From positions 1-64,000 of the forward strand of contig NZ_JACIYP010000008.1 in assembly GCF_014359905.1 (NCBI RefSeq): a stretch of 64,000 nucleotides of DNA, given 5' to 3'. Below, in pieces: positions 27,615 through 29,132 of this stretch (positions are counted from its first letter, which is position 1; the number at the start of each line of letters is the position of its first letter). Position numbers and translations under genes: made by a program. The stretch comes from Hoeflea sp. Lineage in GTDB: Bacteria > Pseudomonadota > Alphaproteobacteria > Rhizobiales > Rhizobiaceae. The notes under the pieces are model-generated. The model made no database searches. It was not told the DNA's origin and saw only the letters and a program-made list of their open reading frames with translations.

Positions 27615-27802
27615 GGGTCGATTCTTTCATTCGGGATTTATGGCGAAGATGACACCAACCGGCGAAGCCGACAATGATCGTCCGACACTGATGGCATAAA
27701 CAGCACTCTGCCCCCAAATATGCCGGCCATGCACAGCTATGAGGCAAATTACCCTGGAATAGCCTCAAGCCATGCAATTACGGAATAGCTTCCATGAGGA
27801 TA
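27615..27802. other. Divergent intergenic region upstream of the DUF1127 cluster
   Basis: 188 bases from the DUF2157 start to the LysR-type box of the first DUF1127 promoter. It should hold the minus-strand promoter for DUF2157. The base composition becomes more AT-rich toward 27700-27800. No gene is seen. Confidence 0.4.
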
Positions 27803-27836
27803 TTGCACTGCACAAATCGATTGAATGCCCCTATAT
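27803..27836 (+). promoter_or_regulatory. DUF1127 promoter 1: T-N11-A box TTGCACTGCACAA plus -10 CTATAT
   Basis: The 13-base box at 27803-27815 has LysR-type T-N11-A form and near-dyad symmetry. CTATAT, the usual rhizobial -10, begins exactly 28 bases after the box start (27831-27836). The normal -35 position falls inside the box (CTGCAC), so it looks like an activator-dependent promoter. The same box and spacing recur at 28381 and 28830. In Brucella the LysR-type regulator VtlR activates small DUF1127 genes; that this is a VtlR/LsrB site is inference. Confidence 0.7.
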
Positions 27837-27897
27837 TCAAAACATCGGAACGCCACGGTGGTGAGCCGAGAAACAGCAGGACAGAAGGAGATAGACC

Positions 27898-28038
27898 ATG
27901 AAACTGATCCGCTCCTACGCCAGCTGGCGGAAGTACCGCGAAACCTGCGTCGAGCTCAACAGGCTCTCTGAGCGCGAGTTGAGCGACATCGGCATGTCAC
28001 GGGGCGATATTCCATTCGCCGCACGGCGCGCCTTGTAA
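27898..28038 (+). CDS. DUF1127 micro-protein 1
   Basis: 46 residues. Arg-rich, with the DUF1127 core LNRLSERELSDIGMSRGDI and a WRKYRE N-terminal helix. AAGGAG lies 8 bases before the ATG. Relatives in Agrobacterium affect phosphate and carbon metabolism, and the Rhodobacter member CcaF1 binds RNA and acts in maturation of the CcsR small RNAs encoded just behind it. Here too an anti-SD hairpin array follows directly (28053-28180), so the gene and RNA are probably cotranscribed. About 50 % identical to micro-protein 2. Confidence 0.93.
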   Translation: MKLIRSYASWRKYRETCVELNRLSERELSDIGMSRGDIPFAARRAL

Positions 28039-28052
28039 GAGTTTTACGAATT

Positions 28053-28180
28053 CGGAGCGGCCTCCTCCTCCTCCTCCCATAAAGCCGCTTCGATGTGACT
28101 GGTGTTCATCCTCCTCCCGAGCATCAGTCTCCCAAAATGACGCCCACCGGATCCTCCTCCCCCGGTGGGCGTTATTTTTT
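28053..28180 (+). ncRNA. Predicted alpha-r14/CcsR-type small RNA with three anti-Shine-Dalgarno hairpins
   Basis: Three consecutive hairpins start 14 bases after the DUF1127 stop. Hairpin 1: stem 28053-28061 with 28084-28092 (9 bp, one G-U), its loop almost wholly CUCCUCCUCCUCCUCCC. Hairpin 2: stem 28097-28104 with 28122-28129 (8 bp), loop containing CCUCCUCCC. Hairpin 3: stem 28141-28150 with 28162-28171 (10 bp), loop AUCCUCCUCCC, then a U-rich tail, so it doubles as the terminator. CCUCCUCC loops complementary to Shine-Dalgarno sequences define the rhizobial alpha-r14 (NfeR1) and Rhodobacter CcsR families. Exact 5' end is not visible: it may be processed from the DUF1127 mRNA or have its own promoter. 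Confidence 0.85.
28141..28180 (+). terminator. Rho-independent terminator of DUF1127-1 / small RNA
   Basis: A 10-bp GC stem CGCCCACCGG/CCGGTGGGCG with an 11-base loop, followed by TTATTTTTT (28172-28180). It is also hairpin 3 of the small RNA. Confidence 0.92.
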
Positions 28181-28380
28181 GTCCGGTGACAAGCGGCACT
28201 GCGCGCTCCGCCTCCAATCCTCCATTATCAATGCCCGTCCTTTCGCCGACAACCCGCGCGGGCCTTCCCGATCGCGATCAGCCGGCTCGCGCCGAACTGC
28301 GCTGTAACGAAGCCTTAACGTTTATTAACAGGGCCTTACCCGGAGGCGATGCAGAAACCGCATGGCTCCAATGCATTATT
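28181..28380. other. Spacer between small RNA terminator and DUF1127 promoter 2
   Basis: 200 bases with no convincing gene; a 102-codon frame crossing it is incompatible with the micro-gene layout and lacks a ribosome-binding site. Further scattered CTCC motifs (about 28208-28224) exist but without hairpins. Confidence 0.4.
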
Positions 28381-28414
28381 TTGCACTGCACAAATCAGAC
28401 CCAGCTACCTATAT
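28381..28414 (+). promoter_or_regulatory. DUF1127 promoter 2: T-N11-A box TTGCACTGCACAA plus -10 CTATAT
   Basis: The box (28381-28393) is identical over all 13 bases to promoter 1. CTATAT at 28409-28414 again begins 28 bases after the box start. The spacer sequence between box and -10 differs, which argues for selection on the two elements rather than a recent copy. Confidence 0.7.
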
Positions 28415-28469
28415 CGAGGTCAACAAACACGGAGCTGATTTTCAGCCCAAAACTGAAAGGACCAAGACC

Positions 28470-28613
28470 ATGAACTTCCGCAAGGCTTACAAAGACTGGC
28501 GCGACTATCGCAACACAGTCAACGAACTGTCCCGCATGTCTGAACGCGAACTCAATGACCTCGGCATTTCCCGCGGCGATATCCCCTTCGTCGCACGCCG
28601 TCCCGGCCACTAA
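28470..28613 (+). CDS. DUF1127 micro-protein 2
   Basis: 47 residues with the same core (LSRMSERELNDLGISRGDI) and aromatic N-terminal helix (YKDWRDYRN) as micro-protein 1. AAAGGACC precedes the ATG by about 8 bases. Net positive charge suggests nucleic-acid or kinase binding as reported for relatives; the function here is unproven. It has its own promoter and terminator. Confidence 0.92.
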   Translation: MNFRKAYKDWRDYRNTVNELSRMSERELNDLGISRGDIPFVARRPGH

Positions 28614-28655
28614 GTTCGAAAATCACTGCCCGGTCCTCACCGGTCAATCCAAACG

Positions 28656-28682
28656 GCGCCCTGGAGACAGGGCGCTGTTTCT
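28656..28682 (+). terminator. Terminator after DUF1127-2
   Basis: GCGCCCT (28656-28662) pairs with AGGGCGC (28669-28675) around a GGAGAC loop, followed by TGTTTCTG. The U-tract is interrupted, so strength is moderate. It lies 43 bases past the stop. Confidence 0.7.
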
Positions 28683-28829
28683 GTTTGTGCGGCCCGCAAT
28701 CTCCGGGGATTGTCGAGCAATCAGCACCAGGCCGTCCGCCGGCACTGCCTGCCTAAAATACCGGCAGCATCGGAAACTGACCCGCCCGTTAACCAGCCAT
28801 TCCGGCCTTGCATAACAGGAGTGCTTATA

Positions 28830-28863
28830 TTGCTCTGCACAATTGGAATGCAATCGCCTATAT
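28830..28863 (+). promoter_or_regulatory. DUF1127 promoter 3: T-N11-A box TTGCTCTGCACAA plus -10 CTATAT
   Basis: The box (28830-28842) differs from promoters 1 and 2 by a single base. CTATAT at 28858-28863 is again 28 bases after the box start. Three conserved copies in 1.1 kb make a shared regulator very likely. Confidence 0.68.
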
Positions 28864-28932
28864 GACGGGCATCAGATTGATCACACAGTAATCACCGCCC
28901 TCCCTGAAGGGCGCGCACCCGAGGAGACCGCA

Positions 28933-29079
28933 ATGAACATTCTTAGCAGAGCACGCAGCTGGATGAAGACCCGCCAGACCGCACAGGAACTCGCCAACCT
29001 TTCCAACGAGACCCTCGCCGACATCGGCCTGACCCGTTTCGACATCGACAACGTGGCACGCGGCCTTCGCACCCGCTAA
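28933..29079 (+). CDS. DUF1127 micro-protein 3
   Basis: 48 residues. The DUF1127 core is more divergent (LANLSNETLADIGLTRFDI) and the C-terminus is VARGLRTR. GAGGAGACC-type Shine-Dalgarno precedes the ATG. It probably represents a separate paralogue group from micro-proteins 1 and 2, yet shares their promoter architecture. Confidence 0.92.
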   Translation: MNILSRARSWMKTRQTAQELANLSNETLADIGLTRFDIDNVARGLRTR

Positions 29080-29103: not shown

Positions 29104-29132
29104 ACGGCGTCCCTTGGGACGCCGTTTTCGTT
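29104..29132 (+). terminator. Terminator after DUF1127-3
   Basis: ACGGCGTCCC (29104-29113) pairs with GGGACGCCGT (29116-29125), effectively closing a CTTG tetraloop, followed by TTTCGTTT. It lies 24 bases past the stop and 60 bases before trmFO. Confidence 0.88.

Follow-up and report, generated by a model that had tools for sequence, protein, structure and literature searches.

An ar14-family RNA behind a DUF1127 gene of Hoeflea and the composite promoter that linked and free-standing ar14 genes appear to have in common

The 64,000-nt stretch of a Hoeflea sp. contig analyzed here (herein referred to as the window) encodes, directly behind the first of three tandem genes for short DUF1127 proteins, a three-hairpin RNA of the ar14 family with an anti-Shine–Dalgarno (aSD) motif in every loop. 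We consider it probable that this RNA is the 3' end of the DUF1127 mRNA: a composite promoter of the LsrB/VtlR-activated kind would drive a single transcript of ~335 nt that runs from about 27843 to hairpin 3 and codes for the 46-aa DUF1127 protein, and RNase E-like cleavage near GAAUU would release from it an RNA of ~129 nt, whose three exposed CCUCCUCC loops would pair with Shine–Dalgarno sequences in target mRNAs and reduce translation of these mRNAs. The DUF1127 protein may itself have a part in maturation. The locus is a further example of the CIN1 type, and the pairing of DUF1127 gene and RNA was already known; new here are the promoter design common to both forms of ar14, free-standing and DUF1127-linked, and a prediction of which copies are processed.

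Family membership, fold and conservation

The Rfam ar14 model RF02344 matches positions 28047–28177 (+) over its whole length at 93.0 bits, above its curated gathering cut-off of 58.8 bits, and an E value of 1.1e-15 in the 64-kb window rules out a chance match. The MFE fold of 28039–28182 (−60.6 kcal/mol, z −8.0; none of 200 dinucleotide shuffles equally stable) contains three consecutive hairpins between 28052 and 28178 with CCUCCUCC unpaired in the loop of each, the third of which runs into a T-tract (table 1). The initial annotation, which had proposed an alpha-r14-type RNA of three such hairpins behind a DUF1127 gene, the last doubling as a terminator, is borne out in these respects; it had also placed the hairpins just after the DUF1127 stop codon, which is right, at a distance of 14 nt, which the MFE fold corrects to 13. 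The C/T repeat in loop 1 (28061–28078) is at least one unit longer in the window than in two related loci (L129, L130), a slippage-like difference.

Table 1. Features of the DUF1127 tandem and of the ar14 RNA (window coordinates).
Feature	Position	Strand	Basis
Composite promoter, DUF1127-ar14 unit (GAATAGCTTCCATGA 27783–27797, TTGCACTGCACAA 27803–27815, CTATAT 27831–27836)	27777–27844	+	pattern, matrices
First DUF1127 gene of three in tandem, 46 aa (stop TAA 28036–28038)	27898–28038	+	PF06568 54.1 bits, E 1.3e-14
Linker from stop codon to hairpin 1, unpaired	28039–28051	+	sequence, MFE fold
ar14 / cuckoo-type small RNA, RF02344	28047–28177	+	Rfam score, covariation
GAAUU, candidate RNase E site (RNWUU)	28048–28052	+	sequence, comparison; only U28052 paired (MFE fold)
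Hairpin 1, loop with five CUC/UCC-type repeats and CCUCCUCCC	28052–28093	+	MFE fold
Hairpin 2, loop AUCCUCCUCCC	28097–28129	+	MFE fold; 6 of 11 pairs changed on both sides
Hairpin 3, loop AUCCUCCUCCC, followed by T-run (terminator)	28134–28178	+	MFE fold, sequence
Composite promoter, second DUF1127 gene (TTGCACTGCACAA 28381, CTATAT to 28414)	28355–28422	+	pattern, matrices
Second DUF1127 gene, 47 aa, without ar14 RNA	28470–28613	+	PF06568 E 1.3e-17
Ordinary terminator of second DUF1127 gene	28651–28680	+	terminator scan
Composite promoter, third DUF1127 gene (TTGCTCTGCACAA 28830, CTATAT to 28863)	28804–28871	+	pattern, matrices
Third DUF1127 gene, 48 aa, without ar14 RNA	28933–29079	+	PF06568 E 5.2e-12
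Ordinary terminator of third DUF1127 gene	29104–29125	+	terminator scan
GidA-family gene 3' of the tandem, probably trmFO	29193		PF01134

The 12 closest named loci share 89–100% DUF1127 identity with the window (11 are titled Hoeflea and one is an "Alphaproteobacteria bacterium" MAG), and in all 12 the DUF1127 gene is preceded by TTGCNCTGCACAA and followed by a three-motif RNA. The Pfam cut-off for PF06568 is 23.3 bits. Across the window and these loci, mean majority identity over 27778–28177 is 0.84–0.99 per 20 nt, with a dip to 0.73 immediately 5' of the start codon, and it drops to 0.46 directly beyond the terminator, the profile of a single conserved unit made up of promoter, ORF, and RNA. 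At least two further DUF1127 genes follow within about 1.12 kb in 11 of the 12 (L140 has none), and in these 11, as in the window, where all three DUF1127 genes have the same kind of promoter, the ar14 RNA is limited to the first unit.

In an alignment of 18 sequences (the window, the 12 closest named loci and five more distant ones), CCTCCTCCC of loop 1 is invariant (18/18), and CTCCTCCC is found in loop 2 of all 18 and in loop 3 of 17 (L206 has TCCTCCC), so that the three loops are kept in related genomes, a point on which the initial annotation had staked its proposal. The 36 consensus pairs are paired in 96.0% of alignment cells, and 16 of them (40 cells) are changed on both sides; none of 500 shuffles reached the observed value for pairing or for both-side changes, 7 of 500 reached that for the count of further pair types, and sliding the consensus structure by 1–3 columns left 38–56% of cells paired. 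Rfam score and covariation together rule out that the motifs are chance C/T-rich repeats.

The same hairpins could in principle act only in cis, as terminator and stabilizing 3' UTR of the DUF1127 mRNA from which no RNA is released. In favor of this are the terminator character of hairpin 3 and the potential of the loops to pair with AAGGAG, the ribosome-binding site of the DUF1127 gene itself; set against it, the loops are fixed while the stems covary, related RNAs are reported to act in trans (PMC10746234, PMC7143759), and the two sister genes make do with ordinary terminators, which makes three aSD hairpins unnecessary for termination. We rejected a plain terminator on the strength of these sister genes, and regard a purely cis-acting 3' UTR as unlikely.

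Distribution and relation to known RNA families

At E 0.001, ar14 matches were found in 146 of 151 genomes of the family (above the cut-off in 137) and in 10 of 240 genomes drawn from the class, among which only the window's own genome scored above the cut-off; the class-wide searches with RF02344 and RF02791 yielded few usable loci. We describe the family by a nonrandom sample of 90 loci, the best-scoring among the matches listed, which with the window make 91 sources. These contain 122 motif clusters (one source has none), of which 45, from 44 sources, begin 19–97 nt past a DUF1127 stop codon and so fall inside the 120-nt limit applied, 17 follow as further copies downstream of the same DUF1127 gene, and 60 have no DUF1127 gene within 1 kb, as judged with an iterated profile that we built from the three window proteins. 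Conversely, among 80 named DUF1127 loci, a cluster lies no more than 120 nt away in 61 and no more than 700 nt away in 66. Distances in the survey of named loci, the 12 closest included, come from fixed coordinates and may be off by a few nucleotides, and L185 is counted as a miss despite a match elsewhere in its locus. The sequences share ancestry and these counts are hence not independent events, but the linked form (45 + 17 of 122 clusters, 61 of 80 DUF1127 loci) is ordinary in the family. Behind single DUF1127 genes of Aurantimonas and Mesorhizobium (L142, L150, L155), 5 to 9 aSD motifs are arrayed. The window's own genome has a second, weak ar14 match (L002, G000:C112:89341–89489; 37.4 bits, below the cut-off), in whose 3.1-kb locus the self-built profile detects no DUF1127 ORF.

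The initial annotation had regarded this locus as special in joining alpha-r14 to CcsR, a claim that does not hold: besides the abundance of linked ar14 RNAs, the pairing of a short DUF1127 gene with CcsR-like sRNAs is in print as the CIN1 locus, described as frequent in alphaproteobacteria (Reinkensmeier and Giegerich 2015, as presented in PMC10253847), and another report has already placed the rhizobial RNAs of three and of four hairpins in one group with RS0680a of Rhodobacter (PMC3927594, section 2.7). By the definition given in PMC10253847, a short DUF1127 gene followed on the same strand by an aSD hairpin RNA, the window contains a CIN1 locus with a cuckoo RNA; set beside that description it shows no difference, and it adds two more DUF1127 genes behind. 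Among the papers listed in the literature searched, none deals with both NfeR1 and DUF1127, and none is a related report on sRNAs of Hoeflea.

A covariance-model search, suggested at the outset for both families, upheld ar14 and failed for CcsR. The CcsR1 model RF02791 reaches 31.7 bits in the window, below its cut-off of 65.3, and finds no match in the window's own genome at E 0.001 with stricter filters; class-wide it matched 11 of 240 genomes, none above the cut-off, and the control genome Thermus composti was matched as well. That the RNA belongs to the CcsR family proper, with its RpoH-driven two-hairpin units, would agree with its position behind DUF1127, the common loop motif, and the subthreshold match, but it has three hairpins as one unit and a promoter like that of free-standing ar14 genes, whereas the ccaF1-CcsR1–4 operon of Rhodobacter sphaeroides, which likewise carries aSD small RNAs in a DUF1127 3' UTR, is described as having four two-hairpin units and an RpoHI/RpoHII promoter (PMC10253847); we judge this assignment extremely improbable.

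A shared origin of ar14 and DUF1127-linked CcsR RNAs, also put forward by the initial annotation, is nonetheless plausible. In a Rhodobacter-type locus (G172), a DUF1127 gene is followed by four copies of CcsR, and the ar14 model responds at this locus with 56.9 and 52.9 bits (below its cut-off). The DUF1127 protein of G172 is identical to the first window protein at 17 of 29 locally aligned residues. At L116 (G304), the order is reversed: the DUF1127 gene comes second, after a weak CcsR-like match.

A composite promoter and its likely regulator

The pattern TTGCNCTGCACAA-N13–17-CTATAT occurs at three sites in the window's own genome (27803, 28381, and 28830), each before a DUF1127 gene of the window, and its reversed control at none, a genome-wide statement to be taken with caution as the assembly (6.86 Mb, 552 contigs) has a listed contamination of 8.29. 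Since the pattern was derived from these same three sites, the weight lies on an independent test that starts from other promoters. Upstream of the 60 RNAs without DUF1127, the box GCA[TA]NGNTG[CG]NNT[GT] is present within 300 nt in 28, versus 2.6% of 765 random 300-mers, and 27 of these boxes lie between −70 and −82 relative to the first motif and one at −150; a TTGC element is found in 19 of the 60, versus 1.6% of random 300-mers. When these regions are aligned on one element alone, the rest fall into register, in the order GCAT box, 5–6 nt, TTGC or CTGC, ~15 nt, and a CTATAT-like −10. This register is common to free-standing ar14 genes, to leader-only RNAs (which have a DUF1127-type promoter without an ORF), to the DUF1127 genes of Hoeflea and to those of other genera.

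A matrix built from the 27 free-standing ar14 promoters places 27777 at rank 1 of 127,866 positions with 23.7 bits, the next unrelated site scoring 3.7 bits and the promoters of the second and third DUF1127 genes ranking 2 and 5; a matrix from 26 DUF1127 promoters of other genera ranks the three window genes 2, 3, and 1 of 127,866. No Hoeflea-type locus was included in either of these two matrices, on which we rely, and column-permuted matrices put the first site at rank 1 in 0 of 300 trials (median rank 12,479.5). The leader-only class had been picked with the window's own TTGC element, which makes its matrix circular, and it is unused as evidence. Of the 12 closest loci, 10 have their best plus-strand site at the DUF1127-ar14 promoter and the remaining two have it at a different DUF1127 promoter; high minus-strand scores in some Hoeflea loci are the partly palindromic box read backwards (six loci examined). 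Judged by their sequences, free-standing ar14 genes and DUF1127-ar14 operons thus appear to have a common composite promoter, a design that makes the shared origin of both RNA forms easy to test. Locus L206 has four tandem TTGCNCTGCACAA promoters in 1.1 kb (L206:1297–2392), and three of these hardly differ over a length of 100 nt.

NfeR1, an ar14 RNA with six copies in S. meliloti and its own sigma-70 promoter, is reported to be activated by LsrB, which binds at TGCA-N6-GCAT, and to silence targets in trans through three redundant aSD motifs (PMC10746234, PMC7143759). VtlR is reported as an activator of short DUF1127 genes with the motif CAATGCAGCCATGCA (PMC7486931, PMC12595884), among them atu1667, of DUF1127 type, whose promoter it binds (PMC7486931). 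The activated genes BAB1_0914, BAB2_0512, BAB2_0574, and atu1667 resemble the window genes in their short DUF1127 products and GCAT-box promoters, and differ in that the accessible text of these reports (PMC7486931, PMC12595884) mentions no ar14 RNA behind them.

The regions preceding the three window genes agree with the published 15-nt Brucella VtlR motif at 10, 10, and 11 of 15 positions, against a shuffle mean of 9.24, and the upstream box of the window is degenerate, with GAAT in place of GCAT. Agreement at 11 or more positions is reached by 55 of 67 other named DUF1127 loci, compared with 7.7% of shuffles, and by 21 of 60 free-standing loci, compared with 4.1%. This match being weak in the window, the case for LsrB/VtlR binding is carried by the composite matrix: by rank and by permuted control, the window promoter is like the ar14 and DUF1127 promoters of other genera and is likely under LsrB/VtlR control. 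A gene for a LysR-type regulator adjoins trxB in the window's own genome (L101), which we take to be the place of lsrB in Sinorhizobium; it scores below every NCBIfam cut-off shown and is hence not named LsrB here.

The comparison joins LsrB-activated NfeR1, VtlR-activated DUF1127 genes, and DUF1127-linked CcsR RNAs; if the shared promoter is real, the phenotypes of DUF1127 and LsrB/VtlR mutants may partly reflect an RNA in the same transcript. In Agrobacterium, short DUF1127 proteins are reported to act through PhoR binding.

Probable processing and two proposed states of one module

The window RNA resembles NfeR1 (Smr14C2 of Sinorhizobium meliloti) in its above-cut-off model score, its three hairpins with CCUCCUCCC loops and its promoter type, and differs in that NfeR1 has its own promoter whereas the window RNA follows a DUF1127 ORF with the promoter before that ORF. 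A primary transcript from a promoter of its own inside the DUF1127 ORF would nevertheless bring it into line with NfeR1 and with the free-standing genes, 27 of which have their box at the regular distance. No promoter of the ar14 type is found inside 27898–28053, where the best sites rank 119 (free-standing matrix) to 1096 of 127,866 with four matrices, nor does a simple sigma-70 scan detect a plus-strand promoter in this region, and a box at the free-standing position (−68 to −85) is present in 0 of 45 DUF1127-linked RNAs. On the matrix scan we rejected an ORF-internal promoter, which we hold to be very unlikely, and cotranscription is the simplest reading of the missing internal site and boxes.

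Release from the cotranscript would probably take place at the linker. RNWUU is reported as the RNase E consensus in Salmonella (PMC5222698), and in R. sphaeroides RNase E and CcaF1 are reported to mature the CcsR RNAs from the DUF1127 mRNA (PMC10253847). An RNWUU stands before hairpin 1 in 37 of 45 linked, 19 of 19 leader-only, and 15 of 17 follow-on copies, and in 1 of 27 own-promoter and 2 of 14 other free copies, a comparison of classes that includes related sequences; in the named linked loci it is present in 32 of 61. The reversed pattern is itself frequent (28 of 45 linked, 14 of 17 follow-on, 3 of 19 leader-only, and 3 of 27 own-promoter copies), so that the enrichment partly reflects A+U-rich linkers, and in folds of 90-nt pieces, which are noisy, RNWUU lies mostly elsewhere than just before the first stem.

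We hypothesize, with our confidence evenly divided, that free-standing ar14/NfeR1 and DUF1127-3'UTR ar14 are two states of one module, which would consist of a fixed LsrB/VtlR-type promoter and a fixed three-hairpin RNA with a ~140-nt DUF1127 ORF present, eroded, or absent between them: where ORF or leader is present, the RNA would be processed by RNase E at RNWUU, and where neither is, it would be a primary transcript without this element. If true, the regulator would control a small Arg-rich protein and a global aSD RNA jointly in some lineages, while in others the two are uncoupled. The leader of L013, one of the 60 loci without detected DUF1127, still encodes a DUF1127-like piece (E 1.8e-6), and the leader of L018 gives a match below significance (E 0.18). 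The leader-only RNAs, L013, and the Rhodobacter-type locus fit one ancestral module from which the ORF was lost or to which it was gained. In four loci (L024, L027, L056, and L035), a leader-only ar14 unit is directly followed on the same strand by a DUF1127-linked one, so that the two forms are neighbors.
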